Positions 4,007-42,604 of a stretch of DNA of 45,042 bases are shown in pieces. Below the pieces are notes generated by a model. That model was not told the origin of the DNA. It saw only the letters and a list, made by a program, of their open reading frames with translations, and did no database searches. Position 1 is the first letter of the stretch. Each line of letters starts with the position of its first letter. Source of the DNA: a virus. The stretch covers positions 1-45,042 of IMG/VR virus record IMGVR_UViG_3300009172_002008; one strand, written 5' to 3'. The translations under genes were made by a program, and so were the position numbers.

Positions 4007-5086
4007 TTAATTATATCTATCTTGATTATCGAAAAGCCTAGACAATTCAGGTAGGTATTCTTTATAACTCTTTTTCCATAATCTATCTATAGAGTTAGTA
4101 TAATCAATAAATTTACTTTTAGTATTTAAAAAAGTAGAACTAGTTAGTACATTAAATATTTCTTCATTATAAAAGTTAACAGACTTATAATATTCTAATA
4201 CTAGATTTCTATCTGACAAACTTAAGTTTCCTAAACTTAGCTGAGTAGGATACACTAAAAAATTAAAGTCTATAGGTATATTATATTCTTTAGAGAAAGA
4301 AAAAATATTAGGCAGGTCAAATATATTATATATTTGTATAGTAGTAGCTAGATACTTAACATATTTATTGGATAATTGTAAGTTTTTACAAAATTTATCG
4401 TGTATATAGCCTTGCCTAATATATTCTCCTACTTTACCTACTCCGTCAAAACTAGCGTATACGTCGATATTGGTAAACTTATCCCACTCATCTAAATGAT
4501 TTACTCCTTTATAGCTGAGTTTGGAAAGATTAGTAGTTAAAGAAAGATATATATTTTCATATAAATCATACTTATCTATTTGTTCTAGTAGGTAAATATA
4601 TTCATCTGTTATTAAAGGCTCCCCACCTAACACGGTAAGAGTTATTTTTTTAGTCCTGCATAACTGTATTATATAGTCAATATTGCGTGTATTAGATGTC
4701 TCAGCCAAAGGTTTCATATCTAATACTTTACATGCTTCAGAATCTAAAGCCCAAGCAGAGCTATCTTCTGGATTACACATTCTACATTTAAAATTACACT
4801 TGTTAGATAATGATATAGATAATCTCTGTAAGTTTTTTGATTTTATAGTATCTCTTTGTCTAATAGACTTAACACCTGCTGCCTCCGTTTTCCAGCATTC
4901 ATTACAAGAAACAGGTTTCTCCCCATTTAAGAATTCTCTTTTAATAGTCTTAAGTTCCTGAGAGCTGCTATAAGAAGCTATGTCACCTTGATACAGCTTA
5001 TAGTTTACACAACAAGGCCCATAACTCTCAAAATGTGAGTATATCTCTGTCCAAGGTCTGAAACAAAAATGTTTAGATAGATTCAC
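4007..5086 (-). CDS. Radical SAM protein with extra Cys clusters
   Basis: 359 residues. The CxxxCxxC motif for the SAM-bound 4Fe-4S cluster is CNFKCRMC at residues 97-104, and GGEP at about 154-157 is the usual SAM-contacting loop. Additional cysteines before the core (C8, C25-C26, C61, C64) could bind a second cluster, as in twitch/SPASM-type enzymes, although there the auxiliary domain is C-terminal. Radical SAM enzymes of this sort modify peptides or sugars. The start overlaps the end of the UV-endonuclease gene. Substrate unknown; the A-type Fe-S carrier at 34950 could supply clusters. Confidence 0.8.
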   Translation of the reverse strand: MNLSKHFCFRPWTEIYSHFESYGPCCVNYKLYQGDIASYSSSQELKTIKREFLNGEKPVSCNECWKTEAAGVKSIRQRDTIKSKNLQRLSISLSNKCNFKCRMCNPEDSSAWALDSEACKVLDMKPLAETSNTRNIDYIIQLCRTKKITLTVLGGEPLITDEYIYLLEQIDKYDLYENIYLSLTTNLSKLSYKGVNHLDEWDKFTNIDVYASFDGVGKVGEYIRQGYIHDKFCKNLQLSNKYVKYLATTIQIYNIFDLPNIFSFSKEYNIPIDFNFLVYPTQLSLGNLSLSDRNLVLEYYKSVNFYNEEIFNVLTSSTFLNTKSKFIDYTNSIDRLWKKSYKEYLPELSRLFDNQDRYN

Positions 5087-6131
5087 CGAGATAAGCTTCT
5101 TCCTCTTTAATAAACTTATAAAATCCTTGTACTGCTACTTCTTTATGTTTTGCTTCAATATCAAAGTCTGCGTAAGGTAACATATGTACATGCTCTCCCA
5201 TAAGGTCTTCATCCCAGAAAATATCTGAGTGAGCATTAGATTTCATCCAATAGTCTTGATTATCAGGGTGATGTGACTGAGATACATGAAACAGAGGACG
5301 AACACCTTTCCAAGTCTTTACAGCTTCTTGAAAAAAGTTATCAGTATGTTTTATAGTCCGTACTTCTCGTACTTTGCGATTGACCATTTTTTCTCTAACT
5401 TTAACTCTTTCAGTCTCAACCATTCTGTGACAGGAATAGTGATGCGTATCGAGTGTGCATCGTATAGGTATTCGTGCCGCAAGTTCAAGTGTGTGCTCAA
5501 TGTCGTATCCGTTGGGCTTATCTTCGTTTTCGACTGCGAGACATTGTTGCGCATAGTCAGATAAGTAGGGATAGTGGGTGGCAAAACGTTTAATACCATC
5601 TTCTCTTTTACCTCCGTAAAGTCCTTGTAAGTGTATATTCATGACAAAATCATTGGCTGGTATATTCATAAGCTTACCGTATAAAGCATGATACTCTAAA
5701 TCTTCTACAGATTTTTCTACAACTTCGGGTTTATTAGAAGCTAAGACAGTAAACTGACCTGGGTGAACGCTTAGTCTAATATTATGCTTTCTTGCAGCAT
5801 CGCCTGCTTTAGCTAGAATCTCTGATATCTCTGGCATAATCTCTGCATACCAATCTTTAGTAAAATCTAAAGTATAGCAAGGAAACATTTCAGAACTAAT
5901 TCTAAATGCTTTTAAATTCATAGGTTGCGTAGGAAAATAAGTAGTTAAAATATCTAATAGTTTATTACAATTACCAATAGCTTTAGACTGTACTTTTTCT
6001 TTACCCCCATCTTTAAGGGCGTAGGTTTTTGTAGTAGTACCAAAATTATATCGTTTAGCTAATTGTTTATCACTAAACTGACAGCATTGTGAAAGCCGCC
6101 AGTCAGTTTGTGTAGTATTAAAATATCCCAT
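5073..6131 (-). CDS. uvsE: UV damage endonuclease (UvsE/UVDE family)
   Basis: 352 residues. FRISSEMFPCYT near the N-terminus, SVHPGQFTVLAS at about 120-132, MNIHLQG, AVENEDK, CTLDTHHYSCH and LFHVSQSH are the metal-binding His/Glu/Asp blocks of the UVDE TIM barrel. These enzymes nick DNA 5' to UV photoproducts and start alternative excision repair, useful for a phage in sunlit water. Slightly longer than bacterial homologues because of a Lys/Arg-rich insert around residues 245-262. A GGAG site precedes the ATG at 6131. Confidence 0.85.
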   Translation of the reverse strand: MGYFNTTQTDWRLSQCCQFSDKQLAKRYNFGTTTKTYALKDGGKEKVQSKAIGNCNKLLDILTTYFPTQPMNLKAFRISSEMFPCYTLDFTKDWYAEIMPEISEILAKAGDAARKHNIRLSVHPGQFTVLASNKPEVVEKSVEDLEYHALYGKLMNIPANDFVMNIHLQGLYGGKREDGIKRFATHYPYLSDYAQQCLAVENEDKPNGYDIEHTLELAARIPIRCTLDTHHYSCHRMVETERVKVREKMVNRKVREVRTIKHTDNFFQEAVKTWKGVRPLFHVSQSHHPDNQDYWMKSNAHSDIFWDEDLMGEHVHMLPYADFDIEAKHKEVAVQGFYKFIKEEEAYLGESI

Positions 6132-12421: not shown

Positions 12422-13150
12422 TCAGGTATATTTCTTCTTCGTATGAACCTTGCGTCTATAGTAATCTTCCCTGCTAGTTTCCATCATACCCCTGTAAGCT
12501 TTTATAGCTCTAACTTCAGAAGCATCTTGAAATGTAACTTTTTCGTGCCACTCTGCACGCTGCACAGGTATTACTTGGCACATAGGAGTACCTGCAGGAA
12601 TTTCTACAGGATTGCCCCCAGGCGCTAGTTCTGTGTGTAAGAAAGGTATATTTACTACATTTTTATAGTTATCACAATCTACTAATCCGACTAAAGGTAT
12701 AGTAGGTAATTCAAATCTATTTACAGGAGGTAAAAATATAACTGAGTAATTTTTAGGCGTTGAGATGCGCCAAGGATTCATATATTTTAATATATTCATA
12801 TGTTCAAAGGGAGTACCAGGTATCTGCCAAGCACCGTGTTGCTCTATAGGAGCATGCCTTTGCATATCTTCTTTATGTTCTTCACTAAGCCAGTGTGTTT
12901 TTAGCTTACGATTTTCATCTAAACTAAGTACTATATCCATGTGAGTTAAAATGGTATAGCCTGCAGTCATTGCATCAATAACTGGTAGGCATTTTTTAAG
13001 AGTAGGATCCTTTATATCATCAGGATTTTGTTGATGATTAGGCATTTTTTTAAGCCACTCTGGTAATAATTTTTTAGAAGGAATAGGAGGGATTATAAAA
13101 TCTTGATTTGGGAAGTCGTGTATTAAGTGAAATTCTATAAGTTTTTTCAT
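12422..13150 (-). CDS. DUF6065-like phage protein
   Basis: 242 residues. The N-terminus has IPPIPSKKLLPEWLKKMP and a central DAMTAGYTILTHMD, which I associate with the DUF6065-type proteins common in marine phages. The C-terminal half (LHTELAPGGNPVEIPAGTPMCQVIPVQ split over strands) looks like a beta barrel of cupin type. The role is unknown; a small-molecule-modifying enzyme is possible. Starts 15 bases after the next gene. Confidence 0.6.
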   Translation of the reverse strand: MKKLIEFHLIHDFPNQDFIIPPIPSKKLLPEWLKKMPNHQQNPDDIKDPTLKKCLPVIDAMTAGYTILTHMDIVLSLDENRKLKTHWLSEEHKEDMQRHAPIEQHGAWQIPGTPFEHMNILKYMNPWRISTPKNYSVIFLPPVNRFELPTIPLVGLVDCDNYKNVVNIPFLHTELAPGGNPVEIPAGTPMCQVIPVQRAEWHEKVTFQDASEVRAIKAYRGMMETSREDYYRRKVHTKKKYT

Positions 13151-23612: not shown

Positions 23613-24544
23613 ACATACTTATAACAGGTGGTTTTGGTTTTATAGGTGCTCATTTAGTAAATGCTTTAGGAGATGGTCACACTGTAGATATACTAGATGG
23701 GTTTGACTTAGAATATGTTGGATTTAAATACATACACAGAGGTAATAAAGGTTTACAGAAAATAAATGAAATAGAGTTAAAGCATAGAATATTAAATACA
23801 AAATATAGATATGATTTAATTTTTGGTAAATATCGTAATTTTTATAAGAAAAATAGTTTTAATGAATTACCTGATAATAATTATGATTTAATAATAAATT
23901 GTGGAGCATTATCAGAAGCTATACTTTCTCAACATTTTCCAAAGTTTACAACTCAATCAATATTAGACGGAATAAGTAATATAAAGAAGATCTACCCTAG
24001 AACACAAGTTCTACACCTAAGTAGTAGCATGGTTTATGGCAGTTGGGAAGATCGAATTGACGAGCAGTACTCTTTAGGAGCTGTAGACCATTACGGAGAC
24101 ATGAAAACAAAGGCAGAAACTGTCTGTGGTGAAGAAGATGTAATTCTTAGACCTATACATGTCTATGGTATAGGAGATGGTAAATTCTCACTGTGGATGA
24201 ATATTGAAAGGCAGATGGCTATTAACAAGCCTTTTTTAATTGAAAGAGCTGGATGTGTCTATATAGATGATTTTGTATTAGCTGTAAAAAATATTATAGA
24301 CAAATGGAATCCAGGAGTATACAATATATCTTACAACTTTACTCGAAATAGTGAAGATATTAAAAAAGTATATCCTAAAGACTTTACAATTTCAGAAAAA
24401 CTAGGTCCTACAGGAAAACCTAGAGGTTTATTAGATTCTGATAAACTTATAAATACCTTTAATATAGACTTTAAGTATAAGAACTATATTTCAACTATAG
24501 AAGATTATTATACAAAACATGAAAATTTATGTAAGACAGAATGA
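23609..24544 (+). CDS. NAD-dependent sugar epimerase/dehydratase (extended SDR)
   Basis: 311 residues. TGGFGFIG at 6-13 is the NAD-binding Rossmann glycine motif; HLSSSMVYG holds the catalytic Ser/Thr and YGDMKTKAE the YxxxK pair. An insert of about 50 residues (65-115) rich in Lys/Asn is unusual. Probably supplies the keto-sugar for the aminotransferase upstream; both overlap by 4 bases (ATGA). Confidence 0.8.
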   Translation: MNILITGGFGFIGAHLVNALGDGHTVDILDGFDLEYVGFKYIHRGNKGLQKINEIELKHRILNTKYRYDLIFGKYRNFYKKNSFNELPDNNYDLIINCGALSEAILSQHFPKFTTQSILDGISNIKKIYPRTQVLHLSSSMVYGSWEDRIDEQYSLGAVDHYGDMKTKAETVCGEEDVILRPIHVYGIGDGKFSLWMNIERQMAINKPFLIERAGCVYIDDFVLAVKNIIDKWNPGVYNISYNFTRNSEDIKKVYPKDFTISEKLGPTGKPRGLLDSDKLINTFNIDFKYKNYISTIEDYYTKHENLCKTE

Positions 24545-24821
24545 TGTAAACAAGGCATTGCGTATTCTAAAGAAAAAGATGCTAGAAGAGGGCGATGCTA
24601 AAATACTTCGTTCTCGTCAGTTTTTTGTGTCTAAAGGCGAAGAAAAAAGGCTAGCAGTAAAAGCAGGCAAAAAACGCTGGGCTAAAAAACAAATTCTTAT
24701 TGAAAAAAATCGTGAGCGTAAAGAACGAGAAATGCTAAGAAGCAGACGTTCTAAAAATACTCCAAATAGAAATAATAAGAAAAATGTTCCAAGACAAATT
24801 CAAAATACAAATAAACGTTGA
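24519..24821 (+). CDS. rpsU: Ribosomal protein bS21 homologue
   Basis: 100 residues. IYVRQNDVNKALRILKKKM, then FFVSKGEEKRLAVKAGKKRW and KKQ match bS21, which binds the 3' end region of 16S rRNA near the anti-Shine-Dalgarno. Host S21 is about 60-70 residues; here a basic tail of about 35 residues (KERKEREMLRSRRSK and so on) is added. Phage-encoded bS21 has been reported in aquatic phages and may bias ribosomes toward phage mRNA. Overlaps the epimerase gene by 26 bases. Confidence 0.9.
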   Translation: MKIYVRQNDVNKALRILKKKMLEEGDAKILRSRQFFVSKGEEKRLAVKAGKKRWAKKQILIEKNRERKEREMLRSRRSKNTPNRNNKKNVPRQIQNTNKR

Positions 24822-25146: not shown

Positions 25147-25395
25147 ATGAAAGCTTATAAAGGCTCTTTTAAAAAGAAAAATGGTGAAATGAGAGATATG
25201 GTATTTGCTCATTTACAAGATTTACCTAAAACTTTTCTAGAAACGAAAGTTCTAGGTGCTGGATCTGAACAAAAATATCCTAACGGTATGAAATTAGTGT
25301 GGGATCTAGAAGCTGATAATTTTAGAGTATTTAATTTCAATACGGTAGACCAACCAGTAAAGGAGTTAATTATAGATGAAAGCAACTATTTATAA
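25147..25395 (+). CDS. WYL_2/DUF2693-like SH3-fold protein
   Basis: 82 residues. KGSFKKKNGEMRDMVFAHLQDLP and MKLVWDLEADNFRVFNF (split by short gaps) match a small beta-barrel protein common in marine T4-like phages, annotated as DUF2693/WYL_2-like in my memory. A likely ligand or nucleic-acid binder. It sits between bS21 and tmRNA. Confidence 0.6.
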   Translation: MKAYKGSFKKKNGEMRDMVFAHLQDLPKTFLETKVLGAGSEQKYPNGMKLVWDLEADNFRVFNFNTVDQPVKELIIDESNYL

Positions 25396-25462
25396 AGACT
25401 ATGAAGTTAAATAGTTGTATTTTTGCAACATTAACTTAAGAAAAAAACTTATATATTTACAG

Positions 25463-25476
25463 GTAGTTTAAACTAC
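25463..25476. repeat. 14-base perfect palindrome before tmRNA
   Basis: GTAGTTTAAACTAC is fully self-complementary and ends two bases before the tmRNA outer stem. It could be an operator or an RNA processing signal for the tmRNA precursor. Confidence 0.5.
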
Positions 25477-25477
25477 T

Positions 25478-25810
25478 GTATTATGAATTGTTAACGTTGA
25501 AACAACGTGAAATCGGACAGGACCTGGGGGCGGTACCCAGCAGCTCCACCACAAGCACATTACGCCTTACTGCAATAAGGTGTTTTTGCAGAGACACAAA
25601 CCTCGAAAGGGTTGAAGTTGATGTGCTTTTGATGGGGCTGAAATAGGATCGACTGACGGTGTAAGGAAGTGGAGTTAACCGGATGATCGCGTATAGATCA
25701 ACATTACTAAATGCAAACAATAACTTTGCACCATCTGGTTATGCACTAGCTGCATAAACACAGGGGGTTGGCGACTAACCTAGCAACAGAAAAGTCGTAA
25801 TTCATAATAC
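25478..25810 (+). ncRNA. ssrA: Two-piece (permuted) tmRNA
   Basis: Permuted alphaproteobacterial order. The acceptor piece comes first: T-arm CTGGG/CCCAG at about 25524-25540, then CAGCTCC-A-CCA ending at 25551. The coding piece starts at 25634 with GGGGCTG, which pairs with CAGCTCC over seven base pairs (one G-U). The tag frame runs from resume codon GCA at 25713 to TAA at 25755-25757 and reads ANNNFAPSGYALAA, ending in the usual ALAA degradation signal. The outer arms GTATTATGAATT (25478-25489) and AATTCATAATAC (25799-25810) are perfectly complementary and hold the two pieces together. The intervening 82 bases contain AGCACAT/ATGTGCT and an 8-bp hairpin, probably cut out. It rescues stalled ribosomes with the host SmpB. 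The outer limits are approximate. Confidence 0.93.
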
Positions 25811-25823
25811 TAAAGGAAATACA

Positions 25824-26618
25824 ATGAAACACTCAATTTTATCAGTTGTGGGAATTTTACTATCTACCACAGCTTATGCAGACGGAACTCCTGCTGCACC
25901 ACAATCCCCTGTATCAGGAGAAGTAACTATAAGTTTTGCAGAAACTGCAGGAAACAACTATGGAGCCTCTATGTTAGCAGAAGTTAATGTAGACGCAGGC
26001 GAAGCAGCATTAGTAGATTTAGATTTTACTGCTACAGATGGCAATGCTTTAACTTTAAAAAACTGGACAGTAGGTACTGATGTAGCTGGCGTAAACGTAG
26101 CAATTGGTGATGATAACGGTATTATGCCAACAGCAGAAAAAACTGCTTATAATACTCTTGCTACTCCTGCTATGACAGAATCCGTATCCGTATCGGCAAT
26201 GGGTGCTACAGTTGCTATGGGTTGGACTTCTTGGGGTACAGACTTATCTGATATCAGTAACATTCAAGGCGCTTATGATTTAGAAGTAGTTGGTGTAGGT
26301 GTCAAAACAGCAGTTGATTATAACCGTGCTAGCAAAAATACTGTACTAGGTGCAGAAGTTTCTAAAATCGAGATGGGTAGCCTATCATTAGGCGGTGCAA
26401 CTACATATGATATAGACGCAAAATTCTTTGCTTTTGAAACGTTAGCTACCGTAGGCGGATTAACTGCTTATCTAAATGGCGACGAAGATGATACTACCCA
26501 GAACTTAGGGGGTGAGTATAGTATTGCCGTTGGTGGAGCAGACTTTACTGCAGGTGCTAACTATGATCTAAATGCAGAAGACCTATCACCATCAGCTAAG
26601 TTGAGCTTTTCATTCTAG
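25824..26618 (+). CDS. Porin-like outer-membrane beta-barrel protein
   Basis: 264 residues. Signal peptide 1-19 ending TAYA before Asp. The mature protein alternates polar and hydrophobic residues over its whole length, is acidic and Lys-poor, and ends in SFSF with a terminal Phe, the BAM recognition signal of outer-membrane barrels. AAAGGAAA lies before the ATG, 13 bases after the tmRNA end. Predicted to make a barrel with about 12-16 strands, i.e. a small porin. A phage could use it to alter permeability or to mask or imitate a receptor. Family uncertain. Confidence 0.7.
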   Translation: MKHSILSVVGILLSTTAYADGTPAAPQSPVSGEVTISFAETAGNNYGASMLAEVNVDAGEAALVDLDFTATDGNALTLKNWTVGTDVAGVNVAIGDDNGIMPTAEKTAYNTLATPAMTESVSVSAMGATVAMGWTSWGTDLSDISNIQGAYDLEVVGVGVKTAVDYNRASKNTVLGAEVSKIEMGSLSLGGATTYDIDAKFFAFETLATVGGLTAYLNGDEDDTTQNLGGEYSIAVGGADFTAGANYDLNAEDLSPSAKLSFSF

Positions 26619-40040: not shown

Positions 40041-40070
40041 AATCCACCTCATTTTTTGGGGTGGATTTTT
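40041..40070 (+). terminator. Rho-independent terminator
   Basis: AATCCACCTC (40041-40050) and GGGGTGGATT (40058-40067) pair over ten base pairs with one wobble and an A-U-rich loop, followed by a run of five T (40066-40070). It sits eight bases before the TctA ATG. Confidence 0.9.
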
Positions 40071-40077
40071 GTGTTTT

Positions 40078-41544
40078 ATGATTAGGTGTTATTTGGACTA
40101 TTATATAGTTGTATTATTTTTAGGAGTATTCTACGGATTCTTTATAGGTCTTATACCTGTAGCGGGAGCTACAACAGGGCTTATAGCTGTATACAGTTTT
40201 GTAGGTTACTTTCAAGATCCTTATATGTTAGTAGTATTTACTACGGCAATAGTAGTGACTAGTAGTATAGGAGATACTTTTTGTGGAGTAGTTATGAATA
40301 TACCTGGTGCAGGAGGGGCTGCAGCTACTATGGTAGACGGTTTTCCAATGAGCCAGCGAGGAGAGGCAGCTAGAGCACTTAGCGCAGCTATTAGCACTAG
40401 CTGGATCAATGGACTTATATGGGGATTAGCTGTATTTTTATTTTTACCTTACTATACTAAAATTGTATTGTATTTTGGAACAGCAGAGATGTTTAGTTTT
40501 TTAATATTCGCTATGGTATGCGTAGTATTTGTTAGTAGTAAGTACTGGTTTCGTGGATTAATAGCTTTAGTAGTCGGAGTACTAGTAGGCTTGATAGGCA
40601 TGGACCCTAATACTGCTAGTCCACGCTGGTCGCTTGGATGGGATTATGTAGAAGCAGGTATACAGATTGTACCAGTAATGGCTGGTGTATTAGCTTTTCC
40701 TGAGCTACTTAGTGCTTACAAGATGAAAGCAGAGAGAATAAAACTAACAAAAGGCGTAATACTAACTCAGTTAGTTCAAGGAATCAAAGATACTTGGAAA
40801 TATAAATGGGACGGTTTACGTGGAGGGTTAATAGGAGCCTTTGTAGGGTTAGTGCCAGGAATTGGGGGCGCAATAGCTGACTGGTTTGCTTACTCTCAGA
40901 CAGTAGCTTTAGGTAAAAAAAGTGGAGAAAATGTAGGTAAAGGGCACGTAAGAGGTGTAATAGGCTGTGAGGGCGCTAATAATGCGCAAAAAGCAACTAG
41001 CTATGTGCCTACGGTGTTATTTGGAATACCTGGAGCGCCTTTTGAAGTTATAGTTATGGGGTTACTTATGTATGTAGGACTTGAGTTAGGTACTCCCAGC
41101 GTTTTAGAAGATCAACGATTCTTTGATGTATTACTAAGTAGCTATCTTTGGAGTCTAATTATTATATTACCTATTAGCTATGCATTTATTAAATATGCGG
41201 TATATATAACAAATATACCTTTTAAGTATTATTTCTGGCCTATACTAGCCAGCTTAATATGGGCTAGTACGCAGTATACAGGTATGGTAGATGATTATGC
41301 TATGTTAGCAATTTGTTGTGTAGCAGGTATGTTTATGAAGTACTTAAAGTTCAGTAGAGTTAGTTTTTTAATAGGTTTTATACTTAGTGCAAGACTTGAA
41401 TCTAGCTGGGTACAGTTTAATACGTTCGGTTATGGGTGGGAAGAATTACTGCTTAGACCTATGCCTGCAGCGTTTATAATATTAGCAGTATTAGCTGCTA
41501 TATGGGGTTTGTTTTTTAACAAAGCCAGAATTGATTTTGTTTAA
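40078..41544 (+). CDS. tctA: TctA-like tricarboxylate transporter membrane subunit
   Basis: 488 residues from ATG 40078; a TTG at 40093 preceded by AGGTG is an alternative. The TctA family signature appears twice, as GFFIGLIPVAGATTG and GAFVGLVPGIGGAIADW, plus GANNAQKATSYVPTVLFGIPG, and about 10-12 membrane segments are visible. TctA is the large inner-membrane subunit of tripartite tricarboxylate transporters, which take up citrate-like or other small organic acids with a periplasmic binding protein. Length is that of a full family member. Confidence 0.9.
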   Translation: MIRCYLDYYIVVLFLGVFYGFFIGLIPVAGATTGLIAVYSFVGYFQDPYMLVVFTTAIVVTSSIGDTFCGVVMNIPGAGGAAATMVDGFPMSQRGEAARALSAAISTSWINGLIWGLAVFLFLPYYTKIVLYFGTAEMFSFLIFAMVCVVFVSSKYWFRGLIALVVGVLVGLIGMDPNTASPRWSLGWDYVEAGIQIVPVMAGVLAFPELLSAYKMKAERIKLTKGVILTQLVQGIKDTWKYKWDGLRGGLIGAFVGLVPGIGGAIADWFAYSQTVALGKKSGENVGKGHVRGVIGCEGANNAQKATSYVPTVLFGIPGAPFEVIVMGLLMYVGLELGTPSVLEDQRFFDVLLSSYLWSLIIILPISYAFIKYAVYITNIPFKYYFWPILASLIWASTQYTGMVDDYAMLAICCVAGMFMKYLKFSRVSFLIGFILSARLESSWVQFNTFGYGWEELLLRPMPAAFIILAVLAAIWGLFFNKARIDFV

Positions 41545-41554
41545 GGAGAAAAAT

Positions 41555-42604
41555 ATGAAATCTATAATTTTAGGAGCCGTTATAGCTCTAATAGCTAGTG
41601 TATCGCTAGCAGAGGTTACTATGGTAGTACCACAAAAGCCCGGACAAGGAACTACTGTATGGGCAGAGATTGTAAAAAAAGAACTAGAAAAGCACTTAGG
41701 CGATTCAATCACTCTAAGGTTGATTCCTGGCGCAAGAGATATTCCAGGTATTAACGCCTTTCACAACGATTTACGTTTTGATGATAATACTATAGTAGTA
41801 ACTCATGGAGGTAATGGTGTGTCATTTTTACAAGAAGCAGTAGACTATGACTATGCGGAGTATGAGTCAATAGGCCTTATGAATCTTAATATAATTGCAG
41901 GAAAACGTATTGGTGATGATATGAGCCACCCACGATTCCCTGCAGGAAGTGGTATGGTTCCAGAAGCTTTTGCAATGACTCTTATGATATGTGGGCCTAA
42001 TAAAACAGTTGATGAATATATTACATGTTTTAAAGAAAACGTAACATGGGTAAAAGGTATGAGTGGTAGTGAGCGTAGATTAGCATTTAAACGCGGTGAT
42101 CTAAACGGTACACGGGAAAATCCAGCAACATACCAAAAACATGTAGAACCTGATGAAAACGCAGAACTTTGGTTTCATCATGGACTATTAGATCCTACAA
42201 CGGGTAAGCATGTTGATGATACTAACTATCCTGTAGGCTACCAAGTTGAACAGCTATTTAAAGCAAAATGGGGAGTAGCTCCAAGTGGTGAGTTTTATGA
42301 TGCCTATGTACTTGTAAAAAGTTTTCGTGACGGCTTACAGAAGGCAATTTGGATTAACAAAGGCAATCCAGAACTACGCGATACCTTACGTGCGGCTATG
42401 ACTGCTATGAATAATAATACAGAGTCTATGACAGCAATTGAAGCTAAAAACGGTAAGTATGAATGGTTTATAGGAGAAGACGGTGATAAAATACGGGATA
42501 CGCTTATGAGTTTTATTACTGAGGATGCACTTAAGAATCTAGTTAAATTTAATAAAGAAGCACTAGGCCTAGCTAGCATATATAAAGAAGAACTTATTAA
42601 ATGA
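41555..42604 (+). CDS. tctC: TctC-like periplasmic substrate-binding protein
   Basis: 349 residues from ATG 41555 with AAGGAGA upstream. Signal peptide 1-19 (ending SLA), then VTMVVPQKPGQGTTVWAEIV, the start of the TctC/Bug fold, and VVTHGGNGVSFLQEAV, AGKRIGDDM. It would capture the acid in the periplasm and hand it to TctA. Slightly longer than the usual 320. The small TctB subunit is missing between the two. Confidence 0.8.
   Translation: MKSIILGAVIALIASVSLAEVTMVVPQKPGQGTTVWAEIVKKELEKHLGDSITLRLIPGARDIPGINAFHNDLRFDDNTIVVTHGGNGVSFLQEAVDYDYAEYESIGLMNLNIIAGKRIGDDMSHPRFPAGSGMVPEAFAMTLMICGPNKTVDEYITCFKENVTWVKGMSGSERRLAFKRGDLNGTRENPATYQKHVEPDENAELWFHHGLLDPTTGKHVDDTNYPVGYQVEQLFKAKWGVAPSGEFYDAYVLVKSFRDGLQKAIWINKGNPELRDTLRAAMTAMNNNTESMTAIEAKNGKYEWFIGEDGDKIRDTLMSFITEDALKNLVKFNKEALGLASIYKEELIK

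Follow-up and report, generated by a model that had tools for sequence, protein, structure and literature searches.

A permuted tmRNA gene in a phage genome record carries a conserved pseudoknot in its intervening segment

Introduction

trans-Translation works on stalled ribosomes rather than on completed proteins. Phages also encode tmRNAs, and a published report counts 53 two-piece molecules among 133 unique phage tmRNAs, mostly from marine or aquatic settings (PMC9004378). The same work describes Melnitz, a Methylophilales phage, and Mosig, a Pelagibacter phage, whose tmRNA genes are permuted, alphaproteobacterial in type, marine and not in need of integration. A glutamine riboswitch is predicted at the ssrA gene of Melnitz and also of Mosig, although not in most tmRNA phages. 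Permuted tmRNAs are likewise found in the named roseophages DSS3_MAL1, where the gene is annotated as ssrA, and Phaeobacter MD18 (L145 and L146). A second phage-encoded translation component, the ribosomal protein bS21, is thought to redirect host ribosomes (PMC6375957, PMC9723584); PMC9723584 makes no mention of tmRNA.

Here we analyze a window of 45,042 bases, the whole of the stretch of DNA studied, from an IMG/VR virus record with 34% G+C in which phage protein families are present; the phage is marine and uncultured. Its tmRNA gene shares gene order, acceptor stem, tag position and the 3' pseudoknot region with Caulobacter-type chromosomal ssrA (RF01849), and it is phage-borne, marine, permuted and alphaproteobacterial in type, with no integration needed, like those of Melnitz and Mosig. 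Unlike theirs, it lacks a riboswitch: no riboswitch family matched at E up to 5 within 25440-25830, and none exceeded its gathering score in the window. The linkage to bS21 and the contents of the intervening segment reported below are not described for Melnitz or Mosig in the available part of PMC9004378. The locus also differs from that of DSS3_MAL1 and MD18, where the tag is ANTNAAPMEMAIAA and ssrA lies within a tRNA cluster and on a long tree branch. A whole-gene DNA search of named phages returned no match.

Elsewhere, the window encodes a UV-damage endonuclease, UvdE (5073-6131; PF03851, 135.7 bits), and a protein (12422-13150) whose named-phage relatives, at about 30% identity, are confined to haloarchaeal tailed viruses plus one further record. 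At 40069-42604, the gene for a TctA-type tricarboxylate transporter permease (PF01970, 294 bits) precedes that for a 357-residue secreted-looking protein without a Pfam match, and the two constitute unusual phage cargo.

Results

Gene identity and architecture

ARAGORN called a single permuted tmRNA on the + strand (25459-25848) with the tag ANNNFAPSGYALAA, and the locus matched RF01849 at 25427-25801 (118.1 bits against a gathering score of 50, E 9.8e-32) and RF04321 at 25490-25757 (115.7 bits against 47, E 4.9e-22). All three agree with the initial annotation, which had read a complete alphaproteobacterial-type permuted ssrA gene in a phage region and had proposed the RF01849 covariance-model search. 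The acceptor stem, encoded CCA and tag frame that it listed are likewise in place, with seven pairs, at 25549-25551 and at 25713-25757, respectively (Table 1). The order is permuted, in that the acceptor half with its CCA (25541-25551) precedes the half bearing the 5' acceptor strand (25634-25640). The third acceptor-stem pair reads as G-U, and the mature RNA most likely spans from about 25490 to about 25798-25801.

Table 1. Features of the tmRNA locus and adjoining genes, in window coordinates.
Feature	Position	Strand	Basis or remark
Phage ribosomal protein bS21 gene	24519..24821	+	PF01165, 28.8 bits (cut-off 27); phrog_21469, ribosomal protein S21
82-aa protein gene just 5' of the tmRNA	25147..25395	+	Weakly like WYL_2 (Sm-like fold), PF10902, E 4.7e-4, below cut-off
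Predicted sigma-70-type promoter, TTTACA-N17-TATTAT	25456..25484	+	10/12 consensus matches; position kept across viral tmRNAs
5' outer arm	25478..25489	+	Overlaps -10 hexamer (25479-25484); probably untranscribed
Acceptor piece	25490..25551	+	RF04321 match begins at 25490; direct reading
P2 3' strand, GUUAAC	25490-25495	+	Pairs with P2 5' strand GUUAAC, 25674-25679
T-arm, alpha-type	25524-25540	+	Direct reading of the sequence
Acceptor stem, CAGCUCC with GGGGCUG	25541-25547 with 25634-25640	+	7/7 paired
Encoded CCA	25549-25551	+	Direct reading
Intervening segment, 82 nt, removal predicted	25552..25633	+	Sequence; fold z -2.16; homologous segments in other phages
Closing stem, AAGCACAT/ATGTGCTT	25553-25560/25621-25628	+	Direct reading
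Pseudoknot in the intervening segment	25563..25591	+	Stem CGCCUUA/UAAGGUG, 25563-25569/25576-25582; loop CUGCAA 25570-25575 with UUGCAG 25586-25591
Coding piece	25634..25800	+	Acceptor strand, D-loop region, P2 5' strand, tag, 3' pseudoknot; 3' end estimated
Tag reading frame, ANNNFAPSGYALAA, stop UAA	25713..25757	+	ARAGORN
3'-terminal pseudoknot	25766..25798	+	GGUU/AACC stem; loop GCGACU 25771-25776 with AGUCGU 25793-25798
3' outer arm	25799..25810	+	At or beyond the RNA end; RF01849 match stops at 25801
264-aa protein gene, signal-peptide-like start	25824..26618	+	13 nt past the 3' arm; no Pfam or PHROG match

The tag ends in a hydrophobic Ala-Ala tail directly followed by the stop codon, and similar tags occur at the viral loci L121, L041, L078, L049 and L395. 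For three other loci (L397, L398 and L399), ARAGORN reports tags of 20 residues, such as ARQQTNANDNFAPVSLALAA; reading from GCA, the codon at which translation usually resumes, suggests ANDNFAPVSLALAA as the real tag there. A 440-nt identical copy is present on another contig (L394).

Promoter and outer arms

Matches of the 10/12 type, such as the predicted promoter in Table 1, occur at chance density in this region, being about as frequent in shuffled sequence. In a set of 236 viral tmRNAs, promoters of this kind score 10.0 compared with 8.6 in shuffles, and strong matches concentrate 36-40 nt 5' of the T-arm. The predicted promoter points to transcription by the host polymerase, possibly early in infection. 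Its spacer contains a perfect 14-bp palindrome, GTAGTTTAAACTAC (25463-25476), which could be an operator, and L395 carries CAACTA-N8-TAGTTG at the corresponding site upstream of its tmRNA.

A host-type promoter would also permit the RNA to act early by tagging host proteins and recycling their amino acids. Such a use has been proposed for Melnitz (PMC9004378). We regard early tagging as unlikely, since trans-translation targets stalled ribosomes, not finished host proteins.

The initial annotation had included perfect 12-base outer arms in the RNA. The inverted repeat exists (25478-25489 and 25799-25810) and is unusual, with an equivalent in 4 of 3000 Markov shuffles and at 0 of 1784 places in the window; its assignment to the RNA is probably wrong. 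Because the 5' arm overlaps the predicted -10 box and the repeat is no general feature of viral tmRNAs, the arms probably lie outside the mature RNA, and a transcript from this promoter would start at the P2 strand and therefore leave the 5' arm untranscribed. The only comparable relative is L395, where a 10-bp repeat occupies the same place with a different sequence (p 0.022); L397-L405 have no notable outer repeat. On these grounds we rejected the arms as a general RNA helix. They perhaps have a role within this sub-lineage, for instance in the processing of read-through transcripts.

Conservation and genomic neighborhood

Using the 82-residue protein encoded just upstream as a synteny marker, we found 12 related loci. 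Of these, 11 could be tested (L396 ends too early), and in all 11 a tmRNA follows this gene, so that the tmRNA gene is kept at the same site. The bS21 gene lies 0.7 kb 5' of the window's tmRNA and is found upstream in 10 of the 12 related loci; across L394-L405 it is mostly located 0.3-0.7 kb upstream of the 82-residue protein gene and the tmRNA. It is possible that bS21, the 82-residue protein and the tmRNA form a translation module. On the other side, the 264-residue protein gene is possibly part of the same transcript as the tmRNA. This protein had no tblastn match, and weak translated similarity to it adjoins the tmRNAs of L115, L121, L083 and L067.

The initial annotation had also assumed that the RNA would rely on the SmpB of the host. 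Among 50 viral records that carry tmRNAs of this kind, most of them fragments, none contains an SmpB gene, and neither does the record of the window; host SmpB would accordingly be needed, given that the record has no gene of its own.

The 3' pseudoknot is re-formed from differing sequences across viral tmRNAs. In a set of 200, own partner strands pass the threshold in 88% of cases and swapped partners in 22%. The tmRNA is under selection.

Frequency and origin of the viral genes

Viral contigs were scanned with three exact patterns, each of which gave at least about 120 matches. The parsed set comprises at least 306 viral permuted tmRNAs, with at least 240 distinct in an earlier count. Together with the published proportion of two-piece phage tmRNAs given above, this does not sustain the view that a phage two-piece tmRNA is a rarity.

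We built a tree from 221 columns by a quick method. It covers 138 sequences, of which 76 are viral and 62 bacterial, and the viral label required 2 changes on it compared with 45 in shuffles. The viral sequences had been picked by alpha-type patterns, and the bacterial ones partly for their likeness to the window, a choice that should oppose separation. In the class of the alphaproteobacterial MAG with L122, such genes scored above the cut-off in 349 of 385 genomes, and the NFAP-type tag was absent from all 385. The simplest reading is that phage tmRNAs stand apart from bacterial ones and represent an old phage lineage rather than a recent capture.

The opposing view would be that a host ssrA was captured recently, or that an attachment-site remnant was left by imprecise excision, in either case without being kept for phage use. 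Integration at ssrA is common, and prophages are known to contain fragments of the gene (PMC9004378). The gene described here, in contrast, is complete with its pairing intact, and it has been kept with compensatory changes in diverged phages. The separation on the tree speaks in the same direction, as does the best bacterial DNA match in the 385 genomes, which is a short stretch around the T-arm; capture or excision is thus very unlikely. Equally improbable is a decoy or regulator that would block rescue by competing with the tmRNA of the host, be it for SmpB or for host factors. In mycobacteriophage DS6A, just a tRNA-like domain is encoded, and a molecule of this kind is inhibitory to tmRNA (PMC4131195, PMC11915505); a decoy, however, needs neither the tag frame with its Ala-Ala end nor the 3' pseudoknot, both of which are intact here and in relatives.

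A conserved pseudoknot in the intervening segment

The segment between the two pieces folds into a pseudoknot (Table 1) and has no Rfam match. In an alignment of 10 distinct sequences from 13 loci, 97.7% of the paired cells are able to pair, a value favored by the choice of some loci through a pseudoknot search and by the cutting and aligning of segments by hand. Nine of the 13 pairs changed on both sides, and the covariation score is 0.738 compared with 0.197 in shuffles, none of 500 of which reached it. The window, L220, L115 and L083 group together by sequence similarity alone, and within this group one pair appears as A-U, C-G and U-A. The core of one pseudoknot subtype was located at 24 viral loci, all of them within tmRNA genes (20 by rule and 4 on inspection of the flanks). 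A generic pseudoknot search across all segments was positive in 54 of 125, compared with 27% in shuffles, and therefore only the aligned family is used as evidence. This pseudoknot might help to direct processing, shield the precursor or exist as a free small RNA.

Segments of 60-80 nt in L199, L219, L243, L307, L308, L192 and L250 recur nearly identically across phages. They look structured and, where scanned, have neither a reading frame nor an Rfam match.

An exchangeable slot with nested genes

Viral intervening segments have a median length of 80 nt among the matches listed, while those of two bacterial sets are mostly 7-48 nt long. None of the long bacterial segments examined by inspection contains the pseudoknot of the window. 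Among the matches listed, 37 of 75 distinct viral segments of at least 95 nt hold an ATG frame that exceeds the expected length (p at most 0.05). These nested frames typically occupy 70-94% of the segment, with a TGA stop often placed directly before the coding piece. Homologous frames show pN/pS values of 0.06-0.50, and we take them to be real genes for this reason; judged from such substitution patterns, the tested nested-gene families are under purifying selection. Of ten nested proteins compared with PHROG, eight had no match and two matched families of unknown function.

Nested genes of 27-120 residues are found in L345, L318, L299, L201, L223, L376, L065 and L173, with further examples in the same size range in L287, L387, L317, L378, L400, L401, L011 and L050; the L345-type protein has 44 residues. 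At the tmRNA site of the window itself, relatives carry a gene of 42 residues (L400), a gene of 65 residues (L401), 16 nt only (L404 and L405) or other structured-looking segments. One protein family is encoded inside the segment in L287 and L387 and just upstream of the tmRNA in L085 (6809-7051), a placement that suggests genes moving into or out of the slot. The paper on the tmRNA database, which covers 11,946 permuted tmRNAs, reports a single tRNA and a single repeat located within intervening segments and does not mention protein genes (PMC11915505). Within the limits of the literature searched, we found no report of nested genes or conserved RNAs in this segment.

Discussion

We conclude, with a probability of roughly 85%, that the window encodes a functional alpha-type two-piece tmRNA of the phage itself, acting by the following mechanism. 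Host RNA polymerase would transcribe the gene from its own predicted sigma-70-type promoter. In the precursor, as its sequence indicates, the tRNA halves would form the 7-bp acceptor stem, which the closing stem of the intervening segment lengthens. By analogy with established two-piece tmRNAs, host RNase P and 3' processing enzymes would excise 25552-25633. The products would be an acceptor piece (about 25490-25551) and a coding piece (about 25634-25800), presumably joined by the acceptor stem and P2. The G-U pair would permit charging by host AlaRS, after which host SmpB would deliver the RNA to ribosomes that have stalled on broken mRNA. The resulting fragment would carry the tag ANNNFAPSGYALAA as a mark for proteolysis. 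The likely benefit is that ribosomes would be kept free during the destruction of host mRNA, alongside the action of the bS21 encoded nearby.

The tmRNA itself belongs to an already known class of phage gene; the new part is the exchangeable segment with its conserved pseudoknot. Comparison of the loci indicates that the phage intervening segment behaves as an exchangeable slot, in which the pseudoknot may aid maturation or be released as a small RNA. We somewhat favor the broader proposal of a viral lineage that uses the excised segment as an exchangeable cargo slot, filled in many phages by a nested small protein gene and here by a conserved pseudoknot RNA that would be a by-product or a maturation aid.

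Phage tmRNAs are known yet have received little study. Our data point to an old viral lineage with a link to phage bS21, so that control of ribosome rescue by phages becomes open to testing. Usually dismissed as waste, the intervening segment seems to house conserved small RNAs and small protein genes, and such nested genes would escape any annotation that treats a tmRNA as a single feature.
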